32,284 bases of DNA from Clostridia bacterium (GTDB lineage: Bacteria; Bacillota; Clostridia; Christensenellales; Aristaeellaceae), in contig JAFULL010000081.1 of the NCBI GenBank assembly GCA_017473345.1, forward strand, positions 1 to 32,284, written 5' to 3'. Below, piece after piece: positions 3,317 through 23,770 of the stretch. Each line of letters starts with the position of its first letter. Position 1 is the first letter of the stretch. The notes beneath the pieces are model-generated. The model did not search any database. It had not been told where the DNA came from and saw only the letters and a program-made list of their open reading frames with translations. A program made the translations under genes and the position numbers.

Positions 3317-5431
3317 TCACTCTTTATAGGTGATCTCCAACACATCCATGCCGCGGCCGGGCACACTGCTGGATACCGTGTATTCCGTCGTAGGCGCGGG
3401 GTAGCCCACAGGCTTGGTGAGAAACTCCACCTTTTCGATGGGCCGCTTGACATGCAGCACCGGCATGCAGTAGAAATAGGCTTCGTTTTCGATGAGGAAA
3501 CGGTCCTTATTCTCCGTCATCTCAACCTGCTCCACATGGCAGAAGCCTTCATCCTCGGCAGATTCCGCATGATTGCCGTCGGAGGTGAAGTAGTTTTCGC
3601 ACGTCATGGTAAGGGTGGGATAATCGCAGTCAGTCTCCATCCATTTGGCCAGCTGCTCGATCAGTTCAGCCGCAACAGGATGATAGGTCATTTCATGACG
3701 CCAGCTTTCGCGCAGCTCGGGCAGGCCTCCAAGATTGGCGGGCTTTGCGCCAGGCACGCTGTATACGGCTACATGCTCTGCGGGCTGATCGGTCCACGCA
3801 GCGATGGTCTTCCATTCGTTGACGGACACAAACAGGCAGTCCTCGTGCTCCTTTCCTTCCGGCAGCGCACCCACATACAGCACGCGGCCGCGGTTGTAAG
3901 CGCCGATCTTCGCTCGTTCCTCCTGCGGCAGCAGATCAGGGTTGGCCACCACGATGGGGCCGCTGACAGCGTCCAGATATTCGATGGGGGCGATCTTGAA
4001 CAGCGGCGCGCCTTTGGCCTTCAGCTCGCCCAGCCATTTGGCGGTGATCCACTCGCGGTCTGCCGCCATGGCGCTCACCTCATTGAGCGACTTGGCGTTG
4101 GACCAGATCATGGTATAGCCGGGCACATTGCGCACCTGCGGAGTATAGCCGTTGTCCCAGGCCATGCGCACATCGCGCCATTCATGCGCGTCCAGACCGT
4201 CGCCCAGGCAGAACCACGGGCCGTTGGTCACCGGGGTAAAGCCGTCCGGCGTGACCAGATAGTTGTTCAAGTTGGTCGCAGCTGCGCGCTGCATGGCTGT
4301 AGGCATGTGATGCAGCACATCCCACTGCTCCAGCGTGTCGCGGATCATGGACAGAGGAGTCATCTTCAAATTGGGCATAGCCGCCTTGTTGCACATGAGA
4401 TTGGCGGCAAACTCATAATGCACATAGCGCCTGCGCGCATCGGAAATATTGAAGCCCTGGCCGTCTGCGCCCAAAATCTGCAGGTCAGCGGAAACATCCT
4501 CCACCACAAAGTTGTGCGCACCAGCCTTTTCCAGCGCCACATAGTCGGTGCCGTAGCGGAACATGGACTCGGTGGGGTCCTTGGTCCAGGCGCTGTTGAA
4601 GGCGGAAAGCGTGCCGTTTTCCTTCAGTGCGCGAATCAGCTCGCAGGTGAAGTCGCTCCACTGCTTCATCATCCAGCGCACCCACTGCATGCGGTGATTT
4701 TTGCAGATCCAGTTTGCACGGGCGAAGATAGCTTCCTTATTTCCGTCACAGCAGCCGGCGGCCTCGGCGTCCGGGGTGATGCCAGTGTCTTTAAAGAAGC
4801 GCAGCACGATATCGTCGGAGAACTCAGCATGCTCCAAAGACATACGCGGGCTGGACAGGCCGTCGGCAATCTGCACGCCGTCCACGCCGTAGTCGTTGAC
4901 CGTCTGAATCAGGCGGGGCCTGAGGAAATCCACAAACGGCGTGCCGTCCTTAAAGCGCTTGGGCATGTAGATGAACGAATGCACATTGCCGTTAAGGTCC
5001 ACGCAGCGCAGCTCAGGATGATTGTCGGTAAACAGGTTGGGCAGATGCTCGCGCCCTGCCGGGAATTCCAGGTCAAACAGGCTGAAGAACACGCGCACGC
5101 CGCGGGCATGCAGCGCGTCCACAAGGCCCTTCATCTGCCAGTTGGTCCAGTCCTGACGCTCGCGGTCGTCATTGTGCGTATGTCCGCCGTAGGAGCAGGC
5201 ATAGATGGGCAGCACGCATTCCTTTTCCATACCCTGATGGGTGTTGACGAAGTCCACGCTGGATAAATGGAAGGATACAATGTCGGGCACATAGCCAGCC
5301 GTTTCAATGAAACGGTCCACACCATAGTCCTCGCTGGTATTGTCAAAGCCGATCAGTTCAATCCATACGCAGTTGAGAAACCGGTTGTCCTTGCTGTCAA
5401 AGTAGGCATATTCACGTCCGTAGCAGCTCAT
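3317..5431 (-). CDS. TIM-barrel glycoside hydrolase-like protein, family unclear (704 aa)
   Basis: A large soluble protein without a signal peptide. A strong AGGAGGT site precedes the ATG at 5431. The first ~440 residues look like a glycosidase TIM barrel: FSLFDLEFPAGREHLPN (~116-132) and YGVDGVQIADG (181-191) resemble strand ends that carry acidic catalytic residues, and NFVVEDVSAD (307-316) supplies another acidic patch. Around 455-530, the segment with GPIVVANPDLLPQEERAKI resembles the glutamine-amidotransferase-like domain that follows the barrel in GH42-type enzymes, and a beta-rich C-terminus follows. I could not assign a CAZy family or name the catalytic pair. It is the last gene of the Opp-type transporter operon, 24 bases after the OppC-like permease, which suggests it acts in the cytoplasm on the imported compound. 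A non-catalytic role is possible. Confidence 0.6.
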   Translation of the reverse strand: MSCYGREYAYFDSKDNRFLNCVWIELIGFDNTSEDYGVDRFIETAGYVPDIVSFHLSSVDFVNTHQGMEKECVLPIYACSYGGHTHNDDRERQDWTNWQMKGLVDALHARGVRVFFSLFDLEFPAGREHLPNLFTDNHPELRCVDLNGNVHSFIYMPKRFKDGTPFVDFLRPRLIQTVNDYGVDGVQIADGLSSPRMSLEHAEFSDDIVLRFFKDTGITPDAEAAGCCDGNKEAIFARANWICKNHRMQWVRWMMKQWSDFTCELIRALKENGTLSAFNSAWTKDPTESMFRYGTDYVALEKAGAHNFVVEDVSADLQILGADGQGFNISDARRRYVHYEFAANLMCNKAAMPNLKMTPLSMIRDTLEQWDVLHHMPTAMQRAAATNLNNYLVTPDGFTPVTNGPWFCLGDGLDAHEWRDVRMAWDNGYTPQVRNVPGYTMIWSNAKSLNEVSAMAADREWITAKWLGELKAKGAPLFKIAPIEYLDAVSGPIVVANPDLLPQEERAKIGAYNRGRVLYVGALPEGKEHEDCLFVSVNEWKTIAAWTDQPAEHVAVYSVPGAKPANLGGLPELRESWRHEMTYHPVAAELIEQLAKWMETDCDYPTLTMTCENYFTSDGNHAESAEDEGFCHVEQVEMTENKDRFLIENEAYFYCMPVLHVKRPIEKVEFLTKPVGYPAPTTEYTVSSSVPGRGMDVLEITYKE

Positions 5432-5455
5432 GCAGCATACCTCCTGTTGGTTTGC

Positions 5456-6607
5456 TTATGCGTTGGGGTCCAAAGCGTCGCGCAGGCCGTCACCAAGGAA
5501 ATTAAAACTCATAACTGTGATCACCACGAACAAACCGGGGATCAGCGTCCAGGGATAAAGGGCTACGTTGCGGAATTTCTGCGCATCGTAGAGCAGCACG
5601 CCCCAGCTGACGGCAGGTGCTCTGAGGCCGATGCCCAGGAACGAAAGCGACGTTTCGCCCAGAATCATATTGGGAATGGACAGGGAAAGCGATGCGATCA
5701 GGTGGCTCATAAACATGGGCAGCATGTGCTTGGTAATCACACGGAAGGTGCCCGCGCCCGCCACCGTGGCTGCCTTGACGTAATCTTCGTTTTTCAGCGA
5801 GAGGATCTTGCTGCGCACGGTACGCGCCATGCCCGGCCAGCTTAAAAGCGACAGGATGATGGTAATGGCAAAGTACACGCGCGTAACCGGCCAGTTTGCC
5901 GGCACGGCCGCCGAAAGCGCCATCCACAGGGGAATCGTGGGCAGCGACATCGTAAAGTCGATCAGGCGCTGAATGACAGAATCGATCCAGCCGCCGAAGA
6001 AGCCGGAAATACCGCCCAGCATGAGGCCCAGCAAAAAGCTGAGCAGCACGCCCACAAGGCCGACGGTGGAGGAGATGCGCGTGCCGATCAAAGTTCTTGA
6101 GAACAGGTCGCGGCCCTGGCTGTCTGTACCAAACAGATAGACATGCCCGTCCTCCACGCCAAACAGGTGGATATCGGTGGGAATCAGCCCCAGCAGCTTG
6201 TACGGTTCGCCATGAACAAAAAACTGCAGATACTGCGGGTTTTCCATGTCTGCCTCAAAAATGGGCTTCCACGTCACGGGGTGATAGCTGCCCTTCATGG
6301 GGTACACAAAGGGGCGCAGCGAAAAGCCGTTTTCCTCATGCACGAAGTGCAGCGCCTGAGGCTGCTGGTTAACATGCTTGCTGTCGATGTAGCCGCCGCT
6401 GTACGGGGCCAGAAAGTCGCAGAAAGCAGCCAGCAGGTACACAAAGATGAGTACCACCATGCCTACCACCGCCAGCTTGTTTTTGCAAAAGCGGCGCCAT
6501 TTCAGTTTGCCCTGCGACAGCACATACATCTCGTCCGCCTCACGGCGCTTTTGTTCCAGCGCAGCGCTGCGGCGAAGCCTGGCTTCTTTTCTGGAAATTT
6601 TCTGCAT
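5456..6607 (-). CDS. Opp/Dpp-type ABC transporter permease, OppC-like (383 aa)
   Basis: Inner-membrane permease of a peptide/oligosaccharide importer. A cytoplasmic, charged N-terminus (~1-35) precedes the first membrane helix (~42-70). A long extracytoplasmic loop (~72-150) follows, then five helices, as in OppC/DppC. The loop that couples to the ATPase reads EDYVKAATVAGAGTFRVITKHMLP, the EAA motif of binding-protein-dependent permeases. The start has a GGAGG site 9 bases upstream, and the gene begins 13 bases after the OppB-like gene ends. The loop is longer than in standard OppC, which is also seen in Opp-type systems dedicated to plant oligosaccharides. Substrate is inferred only from context. 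Confidence 0.9.
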   Translation of the reverse strand: MQKISRKEARLRRSAALEQKRREADEMYVLSQGKLKWRRFCKNKLAVVGMVVLIFVYLLAAFCDFLAPYSGGYIDSKHVNQQPQALHFVHEENGFSLRPFVYPMKGSYHPVTWKPIFEADMENPQYLQFFVHGEPYKLLGLIPTDIHLFGVEDGHVYLFGTDSQGRDLFSRTLIGTRISSTVGLVGVLLSFLLGLMLGGISGFFGGWIDSVIQRLIDFTMSLPTIPLWMALSAAVPANWPVTRVYFAITIILSLLSWPGMARTVRSKILSLKNEDYVKAATVAGAGTFRVITKHMLPMFMSHLIASLSLSIPNMILGETSLSFLGIGLRAPAVSWGVLLYDAQKFRNVALYPWTLIPGLFVVITVMSFNFLGDGLRDALDPNA

Positions 6608-6620
6608 CTTCGCCGCCTCC

Positions 6621-7607
6621 TTACATGGAATTGCGGATACGGGGATCCGTCAGGGCCAGCAGGATATCCGACACCAGGTTGCCAATCATGGCCATCAGGC
6701 CCATAATGAACACGATGGAGCCGGCCAGGAACATGTCCTGGTTTTTCAGCGATGTAATCAGCAGCGGGCCGATGGTAGGCAGGTTGAGCACCATCGACAG
6801 AATGGTCTGGCCGGAGATGAGCTGCGGGAACAGCCAGCCCACGGTGCTGATGAAGGGGATCAGCGCGATGCGTACCGGATATTTGATCAGCAGCTTCAAA
6901 TGCGGCACGCCCTTGGCCCGCGCGGTTTTCACATAGGGCTTGCTCAGCTCGTCCAGAAGGTTGGCGCGGAAGGTTTTGAAAAGGCCTGCCGTGCCAGTGA
7001 TCACAATCACCAGCAGCGGAATCCATACATGGTTGAGCATATCGCCAAATTTCGCCAGCGACCACGGCGCGTTGGCAAAATCATCCGAGAAAAGACCGCC
7101 GGCGTATTTGCCGGTTGCCTGAAAATACACATACATAATGCCGATCGCCAGCAAAAACTCCGGCACGGAGACGCCAAAGAAGCTGACGGCGGTAAAGGTG
7201 TTATCCGCCAGAGAGTATTTATGTGTGGCCGAGTAAAATCCCATGGGGAAGGCCACAATCCAGATGCAAAAAAGACTGACGATGGAAAGCGTAACCGTTG
7301 TGGCCAGACGTGCGCCGATGAGCGCGTTCACCGAACGGTTGTGCACGAAGGAATAGCCCATGTTGCCCTGCAGCAGCTGGCCAAACCATTTGAAGTACTG
7401 CACATACATGGGCTTGTCCAGACCGTAGCGCACCTTGAGCGCCTCTACATATTCCTCGTTGACTGCCATGCCTGTGCTTTGCAGTTTGCTGATGTAAGTG
7501 GTCAGAAAATCTCCGGGAGGCAATTGGATGATCACAAAAACCATGACAGACAAAAGCAGCAGCAATGGGATCATGATCAGCAGCCGCTTGACAATGTACT
7601 TAAACAT
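6621..7607 (-). CDS. Opp/Dpp-type ABC transporter permease, OppB-like (328 aa)
   Basis: Partner permease of the OppC-like protein. It has the OppB layout: an N-terminal helix (MFKYIVKRLLIMIPLLLLLSVMVFVI), an extracytoplasmic segment of about 70 residues containing YGLDKPMYVQYFKW, then five helices. The coupling motif is PYVKTARAKGVPHLKLLIKYP, and the C-terminus ends in LTDPRIRNSM, the usual OppB ending. A GGAGG site lies 8 bases before the ATG. It follows the binding-protein gene after an 87-base gap that contains a hairpin, which probably lowers permease expression relative to the binding protein. Confidence 0.92.
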   Translation of the reverse strand: MFKYIVKRLLIMIPLLLLLSVMVFVIIQLPPGDFLTTYISKLQSTGMAVNEEYVEALKVRYGLDKPMYVQYFKWFGQLLQGNMGYSFVHNRSVNALIGARLATTVTLSIVSLFCIWIVAFPMGFYSATHKYSLADNTFTAVSFFGVSVPEFLLAIGIMYVYFQATGKYAGGLFSDDFANAPWSLAKFGDMLNHVWIPLLVIVITGTAGLFKTFRANLLDELSKPYVKTARAKGVPHLKLLIKYPVRIALIPFISTVGWLFPQLISGQTILSMVLNLPTIGPLLITSLKNQDMFLAGSIVFIMGLMAMIGNLVSDILLALTDPRIRNSM

Positions 7608-7641
7608 AAATCAGGCCTCCGAATGCGGGAAAGTAAGAGAA

Positions 7642-7673
7642 GGGGGGAGGAGGAACGCCGAAACGTTCCCCCC
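7642..7673 (-). terminator. Hairpin between binding-protein and permease genes (attenuator or mRNA stabiliser)
   Basis: GC-rich stem: the G-rich arm at 7642-7657 pairs with CGTTCCCCCC at 7664-7673 around a six-base loop, with a small bulge. There is no T tract on the minus strand, so partial termination or 3'-end protection of the binding-protein transcript is more likely than a full stop. Confidence 0.6.
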
Positions 7674-7694
7674 TCAGGATTCATGCCGGATGCA

Positions 7695-9623
7695 TTACTG
7701 GGCTTCGATCCAGTAAGCCTCGGGACGGGTGTTGCCGGATACGCCGTAGTCCCAGTTGAAGGTCAGGGGATAAACGTTGTGCACGTTATTCTTGATCATG
7801 TAAGCGCTGGGCAGGCGGCGGGCCAGACCGAGTACGTAGAAATTGTCTGTCAGGATCTGAACCATTTCCTTGGCCAGGGTGTCGCGAACTTCAGGGTTGG
7901 GCTCGATAACGATCTGAGCGCCGATCTCCCACAGACGCTTGGTGCCTTCGTCGGGCTCAACAGCGCCTTCAGCAGAGGGGTCCTTACGCCAGATCTGGGC
8001 GCCGGACTGCCACCATACGCCCCAACCGCCCACGTCGTAGCCGGTCAGCTTGGAAACAGCGGTAGCATCCAGCACGGCCAGGCCGGTAGAACCAGTCTGC
8101 ATGCTGATGTCGAAGTCGTTGGCTTCCATACGGGTGGTCCACAGGCTGGTATCCACGGAGGTGGCGGTCACGTTGAGCTTGAGGTTGTTGCGCCACTGCT
8201 GGGCAACCGCTTCGCCGATCTCGATCCACACGTCGTCAAACGCGGGCACCTGAATGACCAGAGAGAATTCTTTGCCGCTGGGGCTGAGGCGCCAGCCGGC
8301 AGCGTCATACTGGTTCATGCCCAGTTCGTCGAGCATCCTGTTGGCTTCATCAGCCTTGAACTCGGTGTACTGGTTGCTCATCTGCTCGCTGTAGTAGGGA
8401 GAAGTCTCGATGGGAGAAGACTGAGCGATCTTGGCAGCGTACGGGCCAACAGTCCAGAAGCTGGCAACCAGATCTTCACGATTAACGCCGTAGGACAGCG
8501 CGATGCGGAAGTTCTTGTCGCCCAGCACAGCGCGCTTGTCAGCGTCGCGATGCAGGGTGTTGATGCTGATGTTCATGGCGTTAGGCTCGTTGGGGTCGAA
8601 GGTGCCCAGCGTGTAGTTCTGCTCTTCCATGTGCTCAGCCAGCAGCGGGTAATTGGCGAAGTTTTCGGACAGAGTGGTGATCTGCACATCGGTCTCGCCG
8701 GCGATGGCCTTCATGATGCCGATGTCGATGCTTTCAACCATGTTGATGACGCACGCGTCAATGTAGGGCAGCTGCTTGCCTTCCTCATCCACGGCCCAGT
8801 AGTAGGGGTTGCGGATGAAGGTGACCTGATTGGTGGTGGCGGGGTCGACCGTCATCATGAACGGGGCCATGGTGGGCAGCTCGTAGTTGGAGGTAAAGCT
8901 CATGCGGTCCATGAACAAGGTGATCCAGTCGCTGGCACCATACTTGTCCAGAGTGGCCTTCAGCTCTTCCTCGGTGACGTAGTCCTTATGGAACTGCTTG
9001 AGGTAGTGGGAAGGACGGAAGAAGTTGGAACCATCGGTGAAGGTGCCGTTGACGTTGGAGAACGCCAGCTTGGTCAGCATGAAGGGCATGGGGTTGGCGA
9101 AGGTAATGGTGAAGGTGTAATCGTCAACCTTGGCGAAGGCAGCGCCTTCCCAGGTGCCCAGAGACGGAGTCAGGTCGGGATTGTTGAGGCATTCCCACCA
9201 GAATTCCACGTCGTGCATGCCAAAGGGCGCGCCGTCGGACCACTTCAGCCCCTTGCGCAGGGTGATGGTGATGGCGGTGGCGTCTTCGCTGACTTCATAA
9301 GCAGCCGCGATGTTGGGAACGACTTCCTTGCCGGTCTCGTCCCAAACCAGCAGCTGATTGCCGCCGTAGAAGCCGATGTGGTGGATGGTATCCAGCATGG
9401 AGATGGCAGACTGACGCCAGGTGCCGCCATAGGTGCCAATGCTGTCCTTTACCTTGACGACCAGCGGGTCCTCGGGCAGACGGTCCTTCACGGCAGGCAG
9501 TTCGCCGGCAGCCACCTTTTCAGCAAGCATGGGCGCTTCCTGATAGACTGCTTCCGCATGGGCAAAGGGAATCATGCCCAGCAGCATGCACAGAGCCAGA
9601 ACCAACGACAGAGTTTTCTTCAT
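7695..9623 (-). CDS. Extracellular solute-binding protein, family 5, Opp-type (642 aa)
   Basis: Captures the substrate outside the cell for the OppBCDF-like importer. I chose ATG 9623 (MKKTLSLVLALCMLLGM) over ATG 9641 because an AAGGAG-AGG ribosome site lies between them, 9 bases before the inner start. The signal peptide ends at AHA-EA. The only cysteine in it is preceded by Leu, so there is no valid lipobox. The mature part has SBP_bac_5 features: YEVSEDATAITITLRKGLKWSDG, a DVEFWWECL segment and RIALSYGVNREDLV. About 640 residues is long for the family, as in the oligosaccharide-binding branch. It lies third in the operon after two ATPase genes. Confidence 0.92.
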   Translation of the reverse strand: MKKTLSLVLALCMLLGMIPFAHAEAVYQEAPMLAEKVAAGELPAVKDRLPEDPLVVKVKDSIGTYGGTWRQSAISMLDTIHHIGFYGGNQLLVWDETGKEVVPNIAAAYEVSEDATAITITLRKGLKWSDGAPFGMHDVEFWWECLNNPDLTPSLGTWEGAAFAKVDDYTFTITFANPMPFMLTKLAFSNVNGTFTDGSNFFRPSHYLKQFHKDYVTEEELKATLDKYGASDWITLFMDRMSFTSNYELPTMAPFMMTVDPATTNQVTFIRNPYYWAVDEEGKQLPYIDACVINMVESIDIGIMKAIAGETDVQITTLSENFANYPLLAEHMEEQNYTLGTFDPNEPNAMNISINTLHRDADKRAVLGDKNFRIALSYGVNREDLVASFWTVGPYAAKIAQSSPIETSPYYSEQMSNQYTEFKADEANRMLDELGMNQYDAAGWRLSPSGKEFSLVIQVPAFDDVWIEIGEAVAQQWRNNLKLNVTATSVDTSLWTTRMEANDFDISMQTGSTGLAVLDATAVSKLTGYDVGGWGVWWQSGAQIWRKDPSAEGAVEPDEGTKRLWEIGAQIVIEPNPEVRDTLAKEMVQILTDNFYVLGLARRLPSAYMIKNNVHNVYPLTFNWDYGVSGNTRPEAYWIEAQ

Positions 9624-9725
9624 TGTTTTCCTCTCCTTCATCAGTTTTTGGGATGCAGTAACTCTATTTGCAGGATGGCGCCGGCCGTCAGGCCTTCAAC
9701 AGCAGGCGCGGTCATCCCCGCAATC

Positions 9726-10736
9726 TTATTTGACGCCTTTAAGGCTGAGCTGCGCAAAGCGCATGCAGCTGGTGCGGTGGCCAAGTGGGTCGTCGCCCAC
9801 GGGCAGCAGCTGCTGCGAACAATGCTTGCAGTCCTCTGTGGCGTATTTGCAGCGCGGGTGGAAGAAGCAGCCCTCGGGCGGGTTAGACGGGTCGGGCACT
9901 TCACCCTCCAGCGTTTCGCTGCGCTGATTTTTGGAAGCGATCAGCTTGGGCACGGAGGCCAGCAGCGCCTCGGTATAGGGGTGCTTTGGGTTTTCAAACA
10001 ATTCGTCGGTCTCGGCGATCTCAACCACCTTGCCCACATACATCACCACCACGCGGTCGGAAATGTGGCGCACGGCGGACAGGTCGTGGGCAACGAAGAG
10101 ATAGCTCATGTGGTACTCCGCCTGCAGGTCCTCCAAAAGCCCAAGCACCTGTCCCTGCACAGATACGTCCAGCGAGCTGACCGCCTCGTCACAGATGACC
10201 AGACGCGGGTTCATGGAAATGGCGCGGGCAATGCCGATGCGCTGGCGCTGACCGCCGGAGAAGGCGTGCGCATAGCGCGTCATGTATTCAGGCCTGAGGC
10301 CCACGCGCAGCATCATCTGCGCCACGCGGTCAGAAATGTCGTTTTTGTCGATCATTTTGTTGATGACCAGCGGCTCAGCGATCAGGTCGCGCACGCTCAT
10401 GCGGGGATTGAGCGAGGAATAGGGGTCCTGAAACACCATTTGAATTTCACGGCGGTAGGGGCGGATCTCCTCGCGGCTGGCGGTGGCCAGGTCGATGGTG
10501 ACGCCGTTTTCCGCAGTGTAGAGAATGCTGCCCTCTGTGGGATCCAGCAGCCTTACGATACAGTTGCCGGTGGTGGATTTGCCGCAGCCGCTTTCGCCCA
10601 CAAGGCCCACGGTTTCGCCGGCGTTGATCTCGAACTCGATATCGTTGACGGCTTTCACATAGCCGACCGTCTTGTTGAAAAAGCCCTTCTTGATGGGAAA
10701 GTATTTCTTAAGCCCGCTGACACGAAGGATCTGCAC
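9726..10736 (-). CDS. Opp-type ABC transporter ATPase, OppF-like (336 aa)
   Basis: One of two nucleotide-binding subunits of the importer. It has Walker [10 protein letters not shown], the Q-loop segment [16 protein letters not shown], signature FSGGQRQR and Walker [14 protein letters not shown], the form usual for OppF/DppF. The C-terminal oligopeptide-transporter extension carries a cysteine cluster around [15 protein letters not shown]. The start is GTG 10736, placed 8 bases after an AAAGGAAG site that overlaps the end of the OppD-like gene. It is translated with its neighbours as part of one operon. Confidence 0.93.
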
Positions 10737-10751
10737 GCTTCACACTTCCTT

Positions 10752-11735
10752 TCACAGCAGATGGCAGCTGACCGTATGGCCGGGCGCCGCTTCCCTGGGC
10801 TGAGGCATCACCCTGTCGCACAGTCCCTTCTGCGCGCGGCTGCAGCGCGGGTGATAGGGGCAGCCGGCGGGGATGGAGTAGGCGTCGGGCACATTGCCGT
10901 GAATGTATTCCAGCTTCTTGCCGCGTGCGTCGGTCACCTGAGGGATGGAGCGGAACAGGTCGCTGGTGTAGGGATGCAGCGGGTTTTGGAGTAGCTCGGC
11001 AGTATCGGCCATTTCCACGATACGGCCCAGATACATCACCGCCACCTTATCGGTGGTCTCGGCGATCACGCCGAAGTTGTGGTTGATCATCATGATGGAC
11101 ATGCCGTATTCCTGCTGCAAATCTTTCATCAGGTTCAAAATCTGCGCCTGCACCGTCACGTCCAGCGATGTGGTGGGTTCGTCGGCGATCAGCAGCCTGG
11201 GATGGCTGGCCAGCGCCATGGCGATCATGGCGCGCTGGCGCATGCCGCCGGACAGCTGGTAGGGATATTCGTCCACGCGCTGCTCAGGCTTGGCGATGCG
11301 TACCTTGCGCAGCAGCTCCACCGCATAGCCCTTCTGCTCGGACTTGGGAATGTCCGTATGCAGGCGAATGGCTTCCATGATCTGATTGCCGATGGTGTAT
11401 ACCGGACAGAACGACGTCATGGGCTCCTGAAAGATCATGGCGATCTCCTTGCCGTGCAACAGTTCCAGCCGCTTGTCACGCGGCGACAGCCTGGCCACGT
11501 CAAACGTGCCCTTCTGGCTGTGATAGAGAATCGAACCGCTTTCAATCCAGCCGTTTTCAGGAAGAATGCGCATCAGCGCGTTGGAGGAAACGCTTTTGCC
11601 GCATCCACTCTCGCCCACAATGCCCAGTGTTTCACCAACATTGATATCGTAGCTGATGCCGTTGACAGCGCTTACGATGCCCTCGTCCGTGCGGAAGCGT
11701 ACAACCAGATCACGTATTTCGACCAGCTTCTCCAT
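10752..11735 (-). CDS. Opp-type ABC transporter ATPase, OppD-like (327 aa)
   Basis: First gene of the transporter operon and partner of the OppF-like ATPase. It has Walker [13 protein letters not shown]-loop [15 protein letters not shown], signature [15 protein letters not shown] and Walker [15 protein letters not shown]. The C-terminal extension has the usual Cys motif ([16 protein letters not shown]). An AGGAGG site lies 9 bases before ATG 11735; GTG 11738 is an alternative start. A 155-base gap with promoter-like sequence separates it from the CBM9-like gene upstream, so it may be transcribed both from its own promoter and by read-through from the GRE operon. Confidence 0.93.
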
Positions 11736-11818
11736 CACTGCGAGCCTCCTATGCTTTTTGCGTTGCAGATATCAACAGCGCGTTCGTCCTATGCAAATGT
11801 TCTCTAACTGTTGATTTT

Positions 11819-11874
11819 ATGATAGCACTTCTGTGCGTAATCGAACATTTTCAAAATTGACCCGATTTTGCACA
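11819..11874 (-). promoter_or_regulatory. Probable promoter region of the Opp operon with AraC-type half site
   Basis: On the minus strand there is a -10-like TATCAT (complement of 11819-11824). A GCAC-TTCT-GTGC palindrome (11825-11836) lies just upstream, and no good -35 is visible, as expected for an activator-dependent promoter. Further upstream, CGATTTTGCACA (11863-11874) matches the core of elements at 18941-18952 and 15562-15574. Function is inferred. Confidence 0.4.
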
Positions 11875-11893
11875 ATCCGCTACAAATACTGTG

Positions 11894-12553
11894 CTATTCC
11901 AGAATCATGTCTCCAAACAGCGTGGGCTGATGAAAGTCCGGCTGCGGAATCACAGCGGGGTCAAAGCCCTGCCACATACCGAAGTGCGACTGCGCCGTGA
12001 GCTCGCCGCAGATGTAGAAGTTGCCCTTCAGTCGGCGGCCGGATGCAAGCGGACTGCCGTACAGCTGGGTGATGAGTTCCATGGACACGGTGTAGCTGAC
12101 GGCCCACCACTTGCCGCAGTGCTTTGAAGCCTGCGGAGCAATACCCGGCGGCGGCACGGCAAAGTCGGCACGGTGATGGCGGTCGCTGCCAAAGCTTAAG
12201 AACATGGCGGGATAATCCGTCACTTCCAGGTTGAAATAATTGGGCGACGTTTCCGGGCTGCACTGCACAAAGAATTCCATACAGCTGTCATCGCAGACGC
12301 GTCCGCCAAAGTGGTGTACCTCCGTGCGGATTTCCTGTTCCTTTGCATACATCAGCACATGCAGTCCGCGGCTGTTCCAGCCTACGCGGGCATGGCAGGG
12401 CGGGCGGTAGCCCGTATCGTCCCACGGGTAATCCTCCAGTGAGGCTTCCTCCAGCGTGTTCCACGGCGCTGGAATCGTCTCAGGCTGAAATTCACCCTCC
12501 AGCGGCATCTGCCCGTATTCTTCCGGCAGGTAACGAATGCGATAGCTCCTCAT
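11894..12553 (-). CDS. Carbohydrate-binding family 9-like protein (219 aa)
   Basis: A single-domain beta-sandwich protein resembling the CBM9/DOMON-like domains that bind sugar chain ends. Typical segments are ARVGWNSRGLHVLMYAKE (~58-75), the DDSCMEFFVQ strand (~86-95) that carries ligand residues in this family, and the final GNFYICGELT. It has no signal peptide and no attached catalytic domain, so a stand-alone cytoplasmic role is likely. I chose ATG 12553 because the AAAGGAAG site abuts ATG 12559 with no spacer but leaves 6 bases before the second ATG. It follows the activase gene by about 13 bases and closes the GRE operon. Its role there is unknown. Confidence 0.7.
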   Translation of the reverse strand: MRSYRIRYLPEEYGQMPLEGEFQPETIPAPWNTLEEASLEDYPWDDTGYRPPCHARVGWNSRGLHVLMYAKEQEIRTEVHHFGGRVCDDSCMEFFVQCSPETSPNYFNLEVTDYPAMFLSFGSDRHHRADFAVPPPGIAPQASKHCGKWWAVSYTVSMELITQLYGSPLASGRRLKGNFYICGELTAQSHFGMWQGFDPAVIPQPDFHQPTLFGDMILE

Positions 12554-12566
12554 GCCCATCTTCCTT

Positions 12567-13421
12567 TCAAGCCTGTCTGCGGTATTTGGCAGGTATGTCC
12601 ATCTGGGAAAGCGCGTCAGCCAGCTGGTTCAGCCGGCTGGGTTCGGGGGGCTCAAACGTCTCTTCGTAGTTCCAGTCCAACAGGGGATATTTGGCGCCGG
12701 CCATGGTGTTGTACGGCAGCAGTTCCACCGTGCGCAGGGTAGCGCAGCCGCGCAGGCGATCGCCCAGCTGACGAATGTTTTCAAGGCTGTCGTTTACGCC
12801 GGCAATCACCGGCACGCGAATGGTAAACGGCACGCCGGATGATTTGAGCGTTTCCAGGTTTGCCAGAATGCGCTGATTGCTGACGCCGGTGTAATGGCAG
12901 TGGCGTTCATCGTCCATGATTTTAACGTCCATAAAGACGAATTCCAGCTTCTCAAGCGCCTGTGCAAATACGTCCTGAGCACAGTATGCGCTGGTTTCAA
13001 TGGCACGGTGCAGGGGCTTTAAGCATTCCAGCAGCTCCAGCAGGAACTGCGGCTGCATGAACACCTCTCCCCCCGAGAGCGTCACGCCGCCTTTGACGCC
13101 CGCAGGAAAGCTGCGCTTGACGCGCAGGGCCAGATCGGCCGCCTCCCAGTACTCGCCCGCAATACGGATGAGCCCCATGGGGCAATAGGCGGCGCAGTGC
13201 CCGCAGGCCGTACAGTCGTCTGACGTGGGACAGGCCCCCGCGCAGCGGCCGCACTGTACGCAGCCGTTGTGATTGCGGATGCGCTGGGGTTTGGGCAGAA
13301 GACCTTCCGGGTTATGGCACCAGCGGCACCTGAGCGGACAGCCTTTGAAAAACACGGCTGTGCGCAGCCCGTCTCCATCGTGTACGGCAAATTCCTCGAT
13401 GGAAAAAATCAAACCTTTCAT
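12567..13421 (-). CDS. Glycyl-radical enzyme activating protein, radical SAM (284 aa)
   Basis: Uses S-adenosylmethionine and an iron-sulfur cluster to place the glycyl radical on its partner enzyme. The radical-SAM motif CxxxCxxC is at C28, C32 and C35 (GCPLRCRWCHNPEG). An inserted ferredoxin-type region has two four-cysteine clusters (C54-C64 and C70-C80), as in activases of GRE dehydratases and decarboxylases and unlike the short PflA of pyruvate formate-lyase. The SAM-binding SGGE motif is at ~115-118. It starts 8 bases after the GRE gene ends, so the pair is co-transcribed. The first residues (MKGLIFSIEEFAVHDGDG) match the family start. Confidence 0.93.
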   Translation of the reverse strand: MKGLIFSIEEFAVHDGDGLRTAVFFKGCPLRCRWCHNPEGLLPKPQRIRNHNGCVQCGRCAGACPTSDDCTACGHCAAYCPMGLIRIAGEYWEAADLALRVKRSFPAGVKGGVTLSGGEVFMQPQFLLELLECLKPLHRAIETSAYCAQDVFAQALEKLEFVFMDVKIMDDERHCHYTGVSNQRILANLETLKSSGVPFTIRVPVIAGVNDSLENIRQLGDRLRGCATLRTVELLPYNTMAGAKYPLLDWNYEETFEPPEPSRLNQLADALSQMDIPAKYRRQA

Positions 13422-13429
13422 ACAACGCC

Positions 13430-15493
13430 TCAGATGCCGAATTCAGTTCTGGCGATGATCTGATCCTGATAGGCCTTGTCCAGCTCCACAAAGTGGCCGC
13501 TCCAGCCCCATACGCGCACGATCAGGTCGCCGTATTCCTCGGGATGTTCCTGCGCCTTTTTCATCTTTTCACGGTTGACGGCGTTGAGCTGCAGCTGATG
13601 ACCGCCCTGCAGCATGAAACTTTGTACAAGGCGCGCCACTTTTTCCACGCTGTCCTCCGCCTTAAAGACGGTGTCGTGCAGTTCGAGGGTCATGGGACCG
13701 CCGTTGACAGCCAGTGGAAGCGCGGAAAGTGCAAATCCGCGCAGAACGGACAGCGGACCCGTGCGGGTGATGAACAGCGCCGGAGAGAAGTTGGCAGGCA
13801 GCGGCTGACCGGCGTCGCGGCCATCCGCCGTTGCAGGCAGCTCGCGGGAGTGCCACAGATAGTACATGGCCGAACCGGTGCCCGCGCGGTAGCATCCGCC
13901 GCGCTCGTTGTGCAGGCCGTCAAGCGCTTCGGCAAACATTTTCAGCAGGCGGTTGCCCAGCATGCGCGCTTCTTCGTCGCGGCCAATCTTGGGCGCCTCG
14001 GTGCGCAGCCTGTGCCGCAGCTGTTCATGGCCTTCGAAGTTGGCTCCCAGCGCCTCCAGCAGCTCTTCCCTGCTTACGCTGCCCTCTTCAAACACAAACC
14101 TGCGCACGGCTGCCAGCTGGTCCACCGCGCAGGAAAAGCCCGTGCCATGTACGCCGTAGTTGTTGTACTTGCCGCCTTCGCTGATGTCGCGCTTGGCTTC
14201 CAGGAAGCCGCGCATCAGGATGGAGGCCATGGGCGAAGGCTCCATGTACAGGCAGGCATGCTTCTGCACCATCTTCAGCGCGCGGTTGTGCAGCCGGCAG
14301 CTGATCTCCTGCAGCAGATCCTCAAAAGTGGATGCATACGGCAGGCATTCGGAGATCACACCATGAGCGACCTCCGCCATGGGCATGGCGTCGATATTGA
14401 CGATATCCATCGACACATTGGGCACAATGTATTCCCAGCAGGCAGCCACGGTGTAGTCACGCGCATCCTCGATGTCGTACCCCCAGCGCAGCAGGCCGGG
14501 AATGACCACGTCGTCGTTGGCATACTGGGGAAAGCCCATGCCCATGCGCGTAAGCTGCGTGCCCAGCTCATACAGCGCCAGCGGGGTATTCTTGTCCACG
14601 CGCAGATTGAGCTTGGGATCGATCTGGCGAATGGCCAGACTGGCTTTCATCGCAAGCGTGGTCAGTTCGTTGACGGCACTGCTGCCGTCTCGCTTGCAGC
14701 CTCCCAGCATCAGGCTTTGGCCGTTGTCGCCCCACTGCAGGCTGTAATACAGGTCAGAGTCCACATTAAAGGACAGGAAAAAGTCCTCGATGAGCGAAAG
14801 TGCGCTTTCCTCATCCAGCAGGCCTGACGCAATATCCTTCTGGTAGAACGGATACATATACTGGTCAAAGCGGCCCACGGTGTTGTGGTAGTTGTCCGCT
14901 GCCCAGAAGCTGAAATGGATCATGCGGAAGCACTGCATGGCTTCCTCCATGGTCTGCGCCCCGTAGCGGATGGCCCGGCTCAGCGCCTGCGCACGCGCCA
15001 TGTCGCCGTGCGCTTCGTACAACTGAGCATAACGGTCGGCAAACTGTTCCACGGCGTCCAGCGTGCGGTCGGTATAGGCGGCAAAGGCCTTCGCGGCCTC
15101 ATCCTCCTGCTCAAGCCCCGCATGCAGGCGCGCCCGGCGGCCCTCAAGGCCCTCGGTGAGCACGGTTCCGTAATCACAGGCGATGTTGGTCACCTTGCCT
15201 TTTTCGTGCACAAAGTGACGGGTTTTGATTTCATCCATCTCGCCTGGGGCATAAATATCCGGAAACTCTATGATTGTTCTGAGACCCTGAATGTGCGTAT
15301 GCTCCATCCAAACCGGCTGTTCCATTTCCAAAAACAGCTCCAGCCTGCGGGTAACACGCTCAGCCATGGGCTTTGACGGATCGCGAATTTCATCACAGAT
15401 CCGCTGCCATTCATCCGGCATAAGGTTTCTGCGAAGTTTGCGGTGCTGCCGTTCTTCAATCCACTGCAAATGCTTACGAATCTGATCGTTCAT
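13430..15493 (-). CDS. Pyruvate formate-lyase-like glycyl-radical enzyme, substrate unknown (687 aa)
   Basis: A glycyl-radical enzyme by two signatures. The C-terminal motif RVWGWSGHFVEL has the radical glycine at about G663. The thiyl-cysteine loop DYTVAACWEYIVP has Cys at about 352 and Glu at 354. Other family segments are GRFDQYMYPFYQKDI (~207-221), PQYANDDVVIPGLLRWG (~322-338), KYNNYGVHGTGF (~442-453) and ALGANFEGHEQLR (~481-493). The loop is ACWEY, not the GCVEP usual in dehydratases, so this is probably a different subgroup. About 690 residues is shorter than most GRE dehydratases (~790-850). No microcompartment genes are nearby. A GGGGGGA site lies about 7 bases before the ATG. It is divergent from an AraC regulator and followed by its activase. 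The reaction could be C-O or C-C cleavage of a sugar-derived compound; I cannot tell which. Confidence 0.88.
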   Translation of the reverse strand: MNDQIRKHLQWIEERQHRKLRRNLMPDEWQRICDEIRDPSKPMAERVTRRLELFLEMEQPVWMEHTHIQGLRTIIEFPDIYAPGEMDEIKTRHFVHEKGKVTNIACDYGTVLTEGLEGRRARLHAGLEQEDEAAKAFAAYTDRTLDAVEQFADRYAQLYEAHGDMARAQALSRAIRYGAQTMEEAMQCFRMIHFSFWAADNYHNTVGRFDQYMYPFYQKDIASGLLDEESALSLIEDFFLSFNVDSDLYYSLQWGDNGQSLMLGGCKRDGSSAVNELTTLAMKASLAIRQIDPKLNLRVDKNTPLALYELGTQLTRMGMGFPQYANDDVVIPGLLRWGYDIEDARDYTVAACWEYIVPNVSMDIVNIDAMPMAEVAHGVISECLPYASTFEDLLQEISCRLHNRALKMVQKHACLYMEPSPMASILMRGFLEAKRDISEGGKYNNYGVHGTGFSCAVDQLAAVRRFVFEEGSVSREELLEALGANFEGHEQLRHRLRTEAPKIGRDEEARMLGNRLLKMFAEALDGLHNERGGCYRAGTGSAMYYLWHSRELPATADGRDAGQPLPANFSPALFITRTGPLSVLRGFALSALPLAVNGGPMTLELHDTVFKAEDSVEKVARLVQSFMLQGGHQLQLNAVNREKMKKAQEHPEEYGDLIVRVWGWSGHFVELDKAYQDQIIARTEFGI

Positions 15494-15513
15494 TCAGTTA
15501 TCCCCCCTGTCTA

Positions 15514-15542
15514 TTGACATTGTATCGCTTAGGTTGTATATT
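15514..15542 (+). promoter_or_regulatory. Sigma-A-type promoter of the divergent AraC gene
   Basis: TTGACA (15514-15519), a 17-base spacer and TATATT (15537-15542) form a near-consensus promoter on the plus strand, with a start expected near 15549. It overlaps the region that must also hold the promoter of the GRE gene on the other strand. Confidence 0.7.
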
Positions 15543-15566
15543 GTATTTATACATTCCACAACGCAT

Positions 15567-15585
15567 TTTGCACATTCCGTGCAAA
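15567..15585. promoter_or_regulatory. Perfect inverted repeat, likely operator
   Basis: TTTGCAC-ATTCC-GTGCAAA is a perfect 7-bp inverted repeat in the 111-base gap between the GRE gene and the AraC gene. It lies just downstream of the AraC gene's start site and upstream of the GRE promoter, a position suited to autorepression and GRE activation. Its left half resembles the element at 11863-11878. Confidence 0.5.
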
Positions 15586-15604
15586 GATTGGAGTGATTTG
15601 GGAA

Positions 15605-16519
15605 ATGTATTACCATCCGACGCATCTGCGGGATATCATCCATGTAGAAGAAATCTTCACGGTGCACTATTTTGAATACTACAAAGACTACACCTTCAAC
15701 GGCGAACAGCATGACTTTTGGGAGCTTTTGTATGTGGACAAAGGCCAGGTGCTGGTAACCGCCGGGCAGCGGCAGCTGTGTTTGCATCAGGGGCAGATCA
15801 TCTTTCATCAGCCCAACGAATTTCATAATGTTGCAGCCAACGGCACCATTGCCCCCAACACCATCGTGGTTTCATTCTCCTGCCACAATCCTGCCATCAA
15901 CGACCTGTGCGGCCGCATCTGCTACGTCAATCGGCAGGAACGTGGTCTTTTGGCCAGCATCATTAGTGAGGCTAAAAATGCCTTCTCCACCAATCTGGGG
16001 GATCCGGAGTATCAGAAGCTGGACGTGCTGTCCCAGCCAGCGTTAGGCAGCGAACAGATGATCCGCCTGCATCTGGAAACGCTACTGATTGGCTTCATCC
16101 GAAAAAACCAGCACTACGACCAGACCGTTGCCGCAAGCACCACCGCGCAGCACAACGCCGAGGCGCATTACTTCAACACCACCTGCAAATACATTGAAGA
16201 TAACATCGACAATGCGTTCACCCTCAACCATTTAAGCCAGCATGCCATGGTCAGCCCCTCCTATCTGGAGCGTCTGTTTAACCGTTATGCAGGCATGAGC
16301 GTGATTCAGTACTGCAATCACCGCAAAATCGAGCGTGCCAAACAGTTCATCCGCGAAGACCGTATGAATATTTCACAGATCGCTGAGTCGCTGGGCTTTT
16401 CGTCCATCCACTATTTTTCGCGCACCTTCAAGCTCATCGAGGGTATGTCGCCCAGCCAGTACGGCCGGTCGGTCAAATCACTGGAGGACCATTCTCAAAA
16501 GGTTTCCAGCACTGAATAA
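15605..16519 (+). CDS. AraC-family transcriptional regulator (304 aa)
   Basis: Sugar-responsive activator type. The N-terminal cupin domain includes EQHDFWELLYVDKGQVLV and GQIIFHQPNEFHNVA. The C-terminal AraC DNA-binding domain has two helix-turn-helix units (TLNHLSQHAMVSPSYLERLF and the signature MNISQIAESLGFSSIHYFSRTFK) and ends with GMSPSQYGRS. I prefer ATG 15605; GTG 15593 is in frame, but the GGAG ribosome site overlaps it. It is divergent from the GRE gene over about 110 bases, so the GRE-activase-CBM9 operon is its probable target. The effector is unknown. Confidence 0.9.
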   Translation: MYYHPTHLRDIIHVEEIFTVHYFEYYKDYTFNGEQHDFWELLYVDKGQVLVTAGQRQLCLHQGQIIFHQPNEFHNVAANGTIAPNTIVVSFSCHNPAINDLCGRICYVNRQERGLLASIISEAKNAFSTNLGDPEYQKLDVLSQPALGSEQMIRLHLETLLIGFIRKNQHYDQTVAASTTAQHNAEAHYFNTTCKYIEDNIDNAFTLNHLSQHAMVSPSYLERLFNRYAGMSVIQYCNHRKIERAKQFIREDRMNISQIAESLGFSSIHYFSRTFKLIEGMSPSQYGRSVKSLEDHSQKVSSTE

Positions 16520-16957: not shown

Positions 16958-17141
16958 GCGTCATAAAATCATGGTTTCATTAAGTTTGTCCAATTCAGCA
17001 TTTACCATCACACTTTCGTGACAGGTTAGCCCAAATACAACAGGAAAACTTCATTTTGCGGCGAATCTTTGCCATCAAAGGAGAAATTCCGCGGCCTCCA
17101 CAAGAAATCCCTCTTGGCAGCCGCGCAGAAAGGAAAAACTT

Positions 17142-18002
17142 ATGCTGCAGATCGGCATTCGTCTTCACGACGTCAATACCCATGCTTCCGTGCAGGAGCA
17201 AACGCTTGAAGCACGGGCCGCCAAAGCAAGAGAAGAAGGTTTCGGCTGCGTTCATTTGGCGCCTCAGAAAGTGATGAAAGGCATCACCTTCGACGGTCCT
17301 GCTTTTCATGAAGGGCTTGCCCATTATTTCAGGAACGTCTTTGCCAGGAATGAACTGGACGTTGCTGTTCTGGGCTGTTACATGAATCTGGCTGATCCGT
17401 CCCCACAAAGGCTTGAACTGTTCAAAGAACGTTACTTCGGTTCGATCCGCGTTGCGGCGCTGGCAGGAATGGGCATGGTGGGAACAGAAACAGGCTCCCC
17501 CAATTCCGAGTATAAAAGCGACCGAAACACCCATTCAGAAGAGGCACTGCAAACGTTCATCCATAATCTGGCGGATGTAGTCGCCTGCGCAGAACATTAC
17601 GGCGTGACCATCGCCATCGAACCGGTGTGGAAGCACATCGTCTTTGATGCGCAGCGTGCTTTGAAGGTAATCCGCAGCATTGCCAGTCCCAATCTGCGAA
17701 TCATTTTCGACCCTGTCAATCTGCTTTGCATGGACAATATCGACCGGCGTGATCAGGTGATTAATGAAACGCTTGATCTGTTGTGTGATCGTATTGCCGC
17801 TGTGCACCTGAAAGATTACACCATTCAAAACGGCGAACTGCATTACATAGCCGCCGGAAAGGGCGAGATGGATTTCCGCCCGTTGATTGGAGATCTCATC
17901 AGCAAAAAGCCCTATATTCAGGCAACGCTTGAAAACACCTGCAATGAAAACGCGGTTGAAGCCAGACAGTTTATCGAAACGCTCTGTATGACCCATTCAT
18001 AA
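17142..18002 (+). CDS. Sugar phosphate isomerase/epimerase-like TIM-barrel protein (286 aa)
   Basis: Belongs to the xylose-isomerase-like/AP-endonuclease-2 fold. Metal-binding and catalytic positions are visible: GTETGSP (E116), IAIEPVW (E160), IFDPVN (D190), VHLKD (H222) and the final LEN (E264). Members isomerise or epimerise keto-sugars or inositols; the exact substrate cannot be read from sequence. An AAGGAAAA site precedes the ATG. Its end abuts the end of the convergent pectinesterase gene with no gap. A role in converting a uronate or rhamnose-derived intermediate fits the neighbours but is inference. Confidence 0.82.
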   Translation: MLQIGIRLHDVNTHASVQEQTLEARAAKAREEGFGCVHLAPQKVMKGITFDGPAFHEGLAHYFRNVFARNELDVAVLGCYMNLADPSPQRLELFKERYFGSIRVAALAGMGMVGTETGSPNSEYKSDRNTHSEEALQTFIHNLADVVACAEHYGVTIAIEPVWKHIVFDAQRALKVIRSIASPNLRIIFDPVNLLCMDNIDRRDQVINETLDLLCDRIAAVHLKDYTIQNGELHYIAAGKGEMDFRPLIGDLISKKPYIQATLENTCNENAVEARQFIETLCMTHS

Positions 18003-18860
18003 TCATCGCATCCATTCCACCCGTCCTGGAATGGGTGGTTTTTCGTAAAAACGGGCTGTTTTGTCACGATTCGTATCATTCCATTTGTCAAAACCTTCCG
18101 CAGCAATATGCTGCTGATAGCTGCAGCCTTCAAACTGTGCCAACCCAAAGTCCCGCCAGGGCCTGGCCAGATAAACGCTTCCCTGCGGCACGCTTTCTTC
18201 GCAGGTAAAACAGCATTTGCGGAACAGAAATCCCCTTTGCTGTTCTGCCGCATGAGCAGGCGCAGCTGCATACCCCACCTTGCGTACATCATGTACAGAA
18301 CGAATCTCACATTCATCAAACAATGCGTCTGCACACCCAAAAATAAAATCAACCGATCCCTCAATCAGGCAGCGGATATATTTATGAACAAATGGGCCGG
18401 GCACGCGCAGTTCATCCCTCAGAAAACCGTCATATCGCTCGATCAGATCAGCCGGAAGCGGACCTGCAAACAGCGTATCCTGCATAGAAGACAATCGACA
18501 GTTTTCCATCCAAAAATCATTGCCCAGTACAGAAAGCGCCACTGCCTGTCCCTTCTTTTCAGGTTCAAGCGCATCATTGACAATGGCCAGTTCCCTCATG
18601 CGAACACCGTCTGCGCATACCGCCATTGTCCATGTGCGAAAGGTGTTGTACTCCTCGCCATTTGCATCTTTTTTCAGCGCATAGTCGTCCCAGACGATGA
18701 TCGTTCTCTCTGCGCCTTCCCCCTCCAGCACAATGCCGTCGGTGCGCAAAAGAACCTTTTGACGGTAAATACCCGCTTTCAGGTGGATTACATCGCCTTT
18801 TTGAGCCACATCAAGTGCCTGCTGCAGACTGTCTTTCGGGTTCAGAATGATTTTCCTCAT
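18003..18860 (-). CDS. Pectinesterase, CE8 family (285 aa)
   Basis: Removes methyl esters from galacturonides. It has the right-handed beta-helix family motifs: GQAVAL (Q105), QDTLF (D128, the general acid position), GSVDFIFG (D171, the nucleophile position) and YLARPWR (R233). At 285 residues it is a compact single-domain enzyme. It starts MRKIILNPKDSLQQALDVA, without a signal peptide, so it should act inside the cell on imported oligosaccharides rather than on polymeric pectin. It is transcribed divergently from the sugar-importer operon, over a gap with a shared regulatory element. A second-site start is unlikely because the first residues already belong to the first helix turn. Confidence 0.93.
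   Translation of the reverse strand: MRKIILNPKDSLQQALDVAQKGDVIHLKAGIYRQKVLLRTDGIVLEGEGAERTIIVWDDYALKKDANGEEYNTFRTWTMAVCADGVRMRELAIVNDALEPEKKGQAVALSVLGNDFWMENCRLSSMQDTLFAGPLPADLIERYDGFLRDELRVPGPFVHKYIRCLIEGSVDFIFGCADALFDECEIRSVHDVRKVGYAAAPAHAAEQQRGFLFRKCCFTCEESVPQGSVYLARPWRDFGLAQFEGCSYQQHIAAEGFDKWNDTNRDKTARFYEKPPIPGRVEWMR
18012..18043 (+). terminator. Terminator of the isomerase gene inside the pectinesterase coding end
   Basis: CCATTCCA (18012-18019) pairs with TGGAATGG (18027-18034) around a seven-base loop and is followed by GTGGTTTTT on the plus strand. The hairpin overlaps the last codons of the convergent pectinesterase gene. Confidence 0.65.
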
Positions 18861-18934
18861 CAGTGTTCCCTTCTTTTTCAGTTGCTGATACAGTTATATC
18901 ACACTTCCTGTAATCCCGTCCCGCCCAAATGTGA

Positions 18935-18963
18935 AAAAGTCGATTTTGTACATATAATCATCC
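18935..18963 (+). promoter_or_regulatory. Shared 29-bp element, probable AraC binding site (copy B)
   Basis: Matches 30802-30830 at 23 of 29 positions by eye (AAAAGTCGA, then TTTGT, then CATAT, then TCC at fixed spacing). It ends 10 bases before the -35 of the importer operon promoter, a usual place for an AraC activator site. Confidence 0.6.
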
Positions 18964-18973
18964 GTTTTGGTTA

Positions 18974-19002
18974 TTAACCCATCAGGCAATGGCATGTACA
19001 AT
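18974..19002 (+). promoter_or_regulatory. Promoter of the pectin-oligosaccharide importer operon
   Basis: A weak -35 (TTAACC, 18974-18979), a 17-base spacer and a -10 TACAAT (18997-19002). The weak -35 beside the shared 29-bp element suggests activation. The expected leader is about 80 bases. Confidence 0.5.
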
Positions 19003-19089
19003 AAGAATCGATAAAACGGCTGTAAATTTGACATATCATCCAACCCAATCAGCAAACGCATGCTTCCATCATCGGCAAGGAGGAAACCT

Positions 19090-19677
19090 ATGCGACGCTC
19101 CATCACATTCCAGCAGTACCGAATAATGGATCTGTTGTTCTGGACGATCCTGCTGTGTCTGTGTGAAGCACTAATCGTTTTGGGCGCAAGACTTTGGTTT
19201 CCCTTTGAGGCTTACACGCTTTCGATTATCCCGGCCGTTTCAGCCATCGTAATGGTGCGCTGGGGTGCAGCTGCTGCGCTGCCGACATTTGCTGGTCCTT
19301 TTGTGTTTTGCACATTGTCTGATGCTTCACTTTCACAATACCTGATCTATTGTCTTGGCTCCATGGCCATTCTTGCATTGCTGCCCATTATCAGAAATAC
19401 AGGCTGGAAACGCCTGCGCGAAGACGTACTGTTGTGCATGCTTTACGGATTTGCTGCCGGTGTACTCGTGCAGGCCGGTCGATTTATCCTGGCTTTGGTT
19501 CTGGGCACCGCCCCATCTGCAGCAGTTGCTTTTTTCACCACCGATGCTCTTTCGGTATTTTTCAGCGTGCTGCTTGTATGGATTGCTCGCAGACTGGATG
19601 GAATCCTCGAAGATCAACAGCATTATCTGACCCGTATTCGCAAAGAAACCGAACAGGAAAGGGGGATGAACCCATGA
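19090..19677 (+). CDS. Multi-pass membrane protein, ECF S-component-like (195 aa)
   Basis: About six hydrophobic helices (roughly residues 13-35, 40-57, 60-76, 83-101, 112-132, 148-176) and a charged C-terminal tail. The overall pattern and the SIIPAVSAIVMVRWGAAAA segment recall S-components of energy-coupling-factor transporters, but no ligand motif confirms this. Start ATG 19090 has an AAGGAGG site 6 bases upstream; an in-frame codon at 19060 has none. It is the first gene of the importer operon and overlaps the next gene (ATGA), so the two are translationally coupled. It may support the importer or be a separate transporter subunit. Confidence 0.6.
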   Translation: MRRSITFQQYRIMDLLFWTILLCLCEALIVLGARLWFPFEAYTLSIIPAVSAIVMVRWGAAAALPTFAGPFVFCTLSDASLSQYLIYCLGSMAILALLPIIRNTGWKRLREDVLLCMLYGFAAGVLVQAGRFILALVLGTAPSAAVAFFTTDALSVFFSVLLVWIARRLDGILEDQQHYLTRIRKETEQERGMNP

Positions 19678-20729: not shown

Positions 20730-20742
20730 CGAGGTAAAAGCC

Positions 20743-23760: not shown

Positions 23761-23770
23761 GTTTGCCCAT

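Follow-up and report, generated by a model that had tools for sequence, protein, structure and literature searches.

The question raised by a 32,284-nucleotide contig of a Clostridia bacterium (JAFULL010000081.1 of assembly GCA_017473345.1; the whole stretch is hereafter called the window) is whether a glycyl radical enzyme (GRE) gene, an Opp-type importer and a putative hydrolase encoded in one block make up a new catabolic pathway. The window is a complete contig of a metagenome-assembled genome (65% complete, 2.4 Mb). Nine genes lie on its minus strand, GRE first, in the order GRE, activase, CBM9_2 protein, OppD, OppF, solute-binding protein (SBP), OppB, OppC and a 704-aa protein, with an AraC-family regulator gene divergent from the GRE on the plus strand. 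This gene list and arrangement, as given in a preliminary description of the DNA, were borne out: each gene named was found as an open reading frame at the position given below, and all except that of the 704-aa protein have a Pfam profile match. The novelty lies in the clade to which the GRE belongs, not in the gene ensemble.

The GRE (687 aa; 13430-15493, minus strand) is a member of the superfamily by both its PFL-like domain (PF02901, 9e-81) and its glycine-radical domain (PF01228, 3e-15), each above the curated cut-off. It keeps C352, E354 and G663 at the positions expected of the thiyl residue, the base and the glycyl residue, with C352 as the central cysteine, and its RVWGW fits the fingerprint RVxG[FWY] stated for GREs in the excerpt of PMC11528403. 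When this protein alone was compared with NCBIfam, it passed no equivalog cut-off: the best equivalog, formate C-acetyltransferase, scored 256.9 against a cut-off of 1109, the other matching GRE equivalogs (CutC, HypD, HpfG-type, HpsG-type, HPAD and indoleacetate decarboxylase) were far below theirs, and the top score of all, to the PFL2-3 subfamily, was 299.8 against 678. A quick maximum-likelihood tree was built from 69 rows, with one gene represented twice and SH-aLRT as the only support measure (no bootstrap); in it, a branch of length 1.12 and SH-aLRT 100 splits 50 rows of what is here called the AACWE/RVWGWS clade from 19 others, which include CutC, HypD, PflD, YbiW, a pdu-linked propanediol-dehydratase type, a sulfolyase-type row (a GRE adjoining a gene of the sulfite-exporter family) and other GREs of the order. 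The nearest outsider (L025:1489-3723, support 91) has the intermediate motif GCWE with RIWGFS. The preliminary description had left room for the GRE to fall in a characterised clade; among the clades tested by NCBIfam and the tree, it fell in none.

The clade motifs A351-C352-W353-E354 and W662-G663-W664 are kept in 75 of 75 aligned rows (81 rows of at least 600 aa, the window included, less six long, cut or duplicate rows). In a column comparison of 50 clade rows with 18 other GREs, every clade row has A351, W664, D245, N257, H449 and E604, and none of the others does; all 18 have G in place of A351 and K or R in place of E604. W353, W662, D247, D256, D292 and K294 are shared, outside the clade, by the nearest outsider only. 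R536 and N296 do not vary within the clade and are seldom found elsewhere, and N366 is likewise invariant but also present in 5 of the 18. N103 occurs in 49 of the 50 clade rows, at a position where 15 of the 18 others have H. A profile alignment places N103 and N366 opposite the His and Asp of glycerol dehydratase, whose catalytic residues we take to be H164 and D447. As judged from these alignments, the polar residues of the clade have changed as a coherent set, with a putative role in lining the substrate pocket. Among solved structures, PflD (8yjo) is the best single-sequence match to the window GRE, and glycerol dehydratase (1r8w) is the best match to its profile, with diol dehydratase and PflD also among the nearest; since all three are C-O eliminases, these matches count towards a GRE that breaks a C-O bond. 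On this sequence evidence, the clade is a real orphan clade, distinct from the GREs with which it was compared. No paper on it was recognised in searches of an open-licence library, which does not show that none exists.

The clade is widespread. A scan of genome contigs with two motif patterns, followed by tblastn at E 1e-3 or better, confirmed at least 554 related stretches. The best 80 of these, all with at least 45% identity, come from Clostridia, Bacteroidales, Spirochaetes, Verrucomicrobia, Lentisphaerae and Kiritimatiellae, and the record titles of many point to the gut of ruminants or other herbivores; named carriers among the best 80 are Acetatifactor muris, Diplocloster, Eisenbergiella tayi and Hungatella hathewayi, and the function of the clade is therefore testable in named strains. 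Within the order, relatives with at least 42% identity were found in 21 of 396 genomes, the source genome counted, and the next matches have at most 35%. Acetatifactor muris has two adjacent clade GREs, each with an activase, at a locus (L127:6604-12810) that also holds GH109-like and GH3-cluster genes. The source genome itself has a second clade GRE, 55% identical to the first and directly flanked by an activase and two GH127-type genes (contig 99; L034:9012-10982), and a third GRE-like protein of 704 aa with GGCTE and RVGGFS, adjoining an activase (contig 20; L055:7692-9806), which has a very long branch in the tree and may be a further unassigned GRE type.

Gene neighbourhoods were compared across 98 loci, the window and 97 others, after removal of four duplicates. 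Among the 97, 65 reach at least 5 kb downstream of the GRE and 32 less than 5 kb, and 50 reach that far on both sides; genes were called by a simple script, and small or spurious frames occur. The activase, represented in the window by a radical SAM enzyme of 284 aa (12567-13421, minus strand; PF04055, above the TIGR02494 cut-off), has a member of its protein cluster in 86 of the 98 loci and none in the other 12. The fetched flanks of the 98 loci encode aldose 1-epimerase (15), GH51-like (11), GH127 (10), GH36 (8) and L-fucose-isomerase-like (7) proteins and LacI regulators (19); genes for GH106, GH5, GH3, GH109-like and raffinose-synthase-like proteins, class II aldolase or FGGY kinase appear at individual loci or in small groups of them. 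A XylE-like symporter is encoded within about 1 kb of the GRE in 27 of 33 loci from Bacteroidota, Verrucomicrobia, Lentisphaerae or Kiritimatiellae (sorted by hand from record titles) and in none of the 65 other loci; this porter beside the clade GREs of other phyla resembles neutral-sugar symporters.

Within the order, sugar-catabolic families were found at 11 of 20 GRE loci (14 genes) versus 3 of 40 control stretches from the same genomes (5 genes; Fisher p 1e-4, as a guide only), and a link to sugar enzymes is therefore supported. The 17 catabolic clusters had been picked after the GRE loci of other taxa were viewed; the clusters were drawn with all loci, whereas the profiles were trained only on loci outside the 20 tested genomes. 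Each control was either the start of a contig or a set stretch, 2-20 kb in length, with a mean of 16.1 kb versus 16.9 kb for the GRE loci. Taken with the motifs and the structural matches, this setting suggests a plant-derived sugar as the probable substrate in which the window GRE breaks a bond.

The importer and the CBM9 gene are another matter. Downstream of the activase, on the same strand, are genes for a CBM9_2 protein (221 aa; 11894-12559; PF16011, E 2e-23), an OppD-type ATPase (10752-11738), an OppF-type ATPase (9726-10736), a family-5 SBP (7695-9641; SBP_bac_5, 7e-48), an OppB-type permease (6621-7607) and an OppC-type permease (5456-6607). By Pfam the Opp-type ABC importer is complete, with both ATPases, both permeases and a binding protein; Opp-type models also rank best in NCBIfam, where no equivalog cut-off was passed among the rows shown. 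The preliminary description had treated the GRE, Opp and CBM9 genes as a joint set that relatives would also possess, yet relatives of the SBP, OppB, OppC and CBM9 proteins were found at none of the 97 other GRE loci, among them the 32 with less than 5 kb downstream; the description had itself named such an outcome as grounds for refutation. OppD and OppF queries did match ABC ATPases at 19 and 20 of the 97; since no OppB, OppC or SBP relative accompanies them, we take them to belong to other ABC systems. The nine-gene set was accordingly rejected as one conserved pathway: the importer and the CBM9 gene have been joined to the GRE locally and are not its conserved companions. Close relatives of the SBP were found in one genome of the order sample only (G274, two relatives; the three best candidates per genome were scored), one of them within an OppD-OppF-SBP-OppB-OppC cassette with the gene order of the window. 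The gene after this cassette, which lies on a contig without a GRE, matches melibiase below the cut-off. The CBM9 protein, in which no signal peptide was seen by eye, has relatives in 19 of the 396 genomes sampled from the order (source genome included), and no other gene of the window was found at the four such loci fetched with their flanks.

Among solved structures, the SBP is closest to 5IPW, with the pectin-binding protein SPH1118 second and an alpha-galactoside-binding protein (6epy) also matched. According to the excerpt of PMC9314435, SPH1118 recognises pectin and hardly binds peptides, despite its annotation as an oligopeptide-binding protein. A separate pectin cluster occupies positions 16995-31982 of the window, with a pectinesterase-like gene (18003-18860), GH28, GH88, a second AraC gene and a second ABC sugar system; the cluster encodes LplB/LplC-type permeases, with them a 694-aa protein resembling a secreted binding protein, and two MalK-like ATPases. 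The kinship of the SBP with SPH1118 and the neighbouring pectinesterase, GH28 and GH88 genes count in favour of a pectin-type substrate for the importer.

The last gene of the block (3317-5431, minus strand) encodes the 704-aa protein, which the preliminary description had called TIM-barrel hydrolase-like and an orphan hydrolase. The window protein matches no Pfam family, GHL6 and GHL10 included; a relative at L060 gives GHL10 an E-value of 0.0019, which makes the resemblance plausible, at a score (17.8 bits) below the curated cut-off of 27.9, which leaves it unproven. The family profile found no relative among solved structures, only three chance-like matches near E 0.1, and the family appears at most weakly glycosyl-hydrolase-like. 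The 704-aa protein is the only member of the block, besides the activase, to recur beside the GRE, but this is limited to four of the 97 other loci (L057, L058, L059 and L060), which have the four closest GREs by identity. It is rare, being present in 4 of 396 genomes of the order, the source genome counted. Distant relatives (28-30%) were noted at L141, L142 and L143, where the fetched stretches hold no clade GRE.

Gaps within the block are 7-24 bases, except those of OppF-SBP (84), SBP-OppB (87) and CBM9-OppD (155), and the GC content of the nine genes is 0.55-0.61 versus 0.47-0.59 in the flanks. ARAGORN found no tRNA in the window, and no Rfam model matched it at gathering score. The AraC-family regulator gene (15593-16519, plus strand) has a close relative at L057 that is likewise divergent from the GRE. 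Between regulator and GRE in the window are two 12-base direct repeats, 21 bases apart (15546-15578, plus strand), that may be a regulator site, and a copy with one mismatch lies in the CBM9-OppD gap (11867-11878). Matches to the repeat are not above chance in the window (12 observed versus 8.4 expected); at L057 they number 22 versus 10.6 expected, scattered over the contig, with one match, of two mismatches, in the AraC-GRE gap.

From the gene content, clade, motifs and sugar context described above, we infer the import substrate, the hydrolysis of the oligosaccharide, and the substrate and chemistry of the GRE as follows, in an account to which we give about even chances: the block is a sugar-catabolism operon in which a GRE of a new clade, acting as a sugar eliminase, is joined to an importer of pectin-type oligosaccharides. 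The block would be a regulated operon of an anaerobic Clostridia bacterium. Its Opp-type importer would take up an oligosaccharide, most likely a pectin-type fragment, which the putatively glycosyl-hydrolase-like 704-aa protein would cleave in the cytoplasm. The activase would set a glycyl radical on G663, and C352, as thiyl radical, would abstract H from a hydroxyl-bearing carbon of the sugar set free by that cleavage; E354 would serve as base, and the neighbouring C-O bond (of a hydroxyl, a ring or another ether) would break to give a deoxy-keto or deoxy-lactone product. The clade would act on sugars in many organisms, the importer and CBM9 gene having been joined to it in this lineage. The earlier proposal of glycan import with a radical step on a derived sugar thus keeps its sugar context and its SPH1118-like SBP and loses the conserved link between GRE and Opp genes.

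Several observations weigh against this account, in addition to the lack of importer and CBM9 relatives at the other loci. The only gene common to most GRE loci is the activase, and even this was not found within the 22 kb of L057, a close relative. The sugar genes that neighbour the clade (GH127, GH51-like, GH36, GH106) indicate different sugars, several neighbouring genes are unrelated to sugars, and few single families are common enough to be compared between GRE loci and controls. Transport and regulator families are not enriched (7 of 20 GRE loci versus 12 of 40 controls), and a transporter link in this order is therefore not supported. Five listed congeners have no clade GRE at the limit used. 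An attempt to single out L-arabinose as the substrate by the loss of arabinose isomerase was uninformative, AraA being found in 3 of 21 GRE genomes versus 14 of 101 genomes of the order (overlapping sets). A broader version of the account, tentative and rather doubtful, is that enzymes of the clade are radical eliminases acting directly on free monosaccharides after uptake by symporter or ABC system and anomer exchange, a kinase-free entry route by C-O cleavage in anaerobes of several phyla, to which the window would add a member joined to a pectin-oligosaccharide importer.

The structural matches admit another substrate. The GRE could be a 1,2-diol dehydratase whose substrate is a three-carbon compound derived from sugar breakdown (of the propanediol or glycerol type) and not the sugar itself, as its nearest solved relatives include glycerol and diol dehydratases; a class II aldolase cluster (c10) is present at 7 of 98 loci, and at L074 the activase and GRE come after genes for an FGGY kinase, a DeoC/LacD-type aldolase and an aldo-keto reductase. 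We consider this unlikely: the propanediol-dehydratase row is outside the clade in the tree, N103 and N366 stand at the presumed His and Asp positions (though N366 is shared with 5 of 18 other GREs), and the XylE-like symporter is encoded at 27 of the 33 Bacteroidota/Verrucomicrobia-type loci, a member of the two aldolase clusters sought at one (L109). An acidic sugar or a phenolic aglycone, with the GRE as decarboxylase or C-C lyase, is quite improbable. Uronic acids are the main pectin sugars, pectin enzymes are encoded next door, and the C-x-E motif is present also in arylacetate decarboxylases, all of which favour such a reaction; the arylacetate-decarboxylase models, however, score far under their cut-offs (155.6 versus 1150 and 155 versus 1100), the corresponding structures rank low against the GRE profile, and the symporter that accompanies clade GREs of other phyla resembles carriers of neutral sugars.

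It is also not likely, in our judgement, that the GRE-activase pair and the CBM9-Opp-hydrolase genes are chance neighbours in this genome with no joint pathway, even though CBM9, SBP, OppB and OppC relatives are found at 0 of 97 other GRE loci, the same-order Opp cassette of G274 is on a separate contig without a GRE, and the 155-base CBM9-OppD gap could part two transcripts. All nine genes are on one strand with mostly short gaps, and the gene furthest from the GRE within the block, that for the 704-aa protein, is the very one that adjoins the GRE in its four closest relatives.

The significance of the preferred account, a sugar eliminase joined to an importer, lies with the clade: at least 554 stretches, no equivalog fit for the member in the window, a consistent change of polar residues, and proximity to genes for sugar porters, epimerases and glycosidases. 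The assignment of several GRE clades has led to anaerobic pathways that had not been suspected. Of known systems, PflD and YbiW of E. coli (1,5-anhydro-sugar-6-phosphate GREs) have the Cys, Glu and glycyl loop in common with the window GRE, but they are in another clade (by one quick tree with SH-aLRT only), they have a His where it has N103, and they are larger (765 and 810 aa versus 687 aa). In further contrast to them, no PTS family was seen among the neighbour Pfam results viewed, which were part of the results and not a full search. As described in the excerpt of PMC12441222, PflD and YbiW cleave sugar-derived substrates to 1-deoxyfructose-6-phosphate. B12-independent glycerol/propanediol dehydratase likewise has the Cys, Glu and Gly in common with the window GRE but differs by the His and Asp that align with N103 and N366 and stands apart in the tree; here too there is a contrast in setting, no microcompartment family having been seen in the same part of the neighbour Pfam results, likewise no full search. 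On the side of import, SPH1118 and the 6epy protein, which are sugar-binding proteins of the family-5 type, can be aligned with almost the entire window SBP, but its best match is 5IPW, an OppA-like protein of Thermotoga maritima, and the likeness is one of overall alignment. The aminoacyl radical enzymes, described in the excerpted text of Fu et al. 2024 (PMC11528403) as orphan GRE relatives, many from gut metagenome-assembled genomes, encoded beside an activase, are similarly activase-adjoining orphans; that assignment was ruled out because position 663 is a glycine, and the window GRE differs from them in keeping both G663 and the RVxG[FWY] fingerprint.

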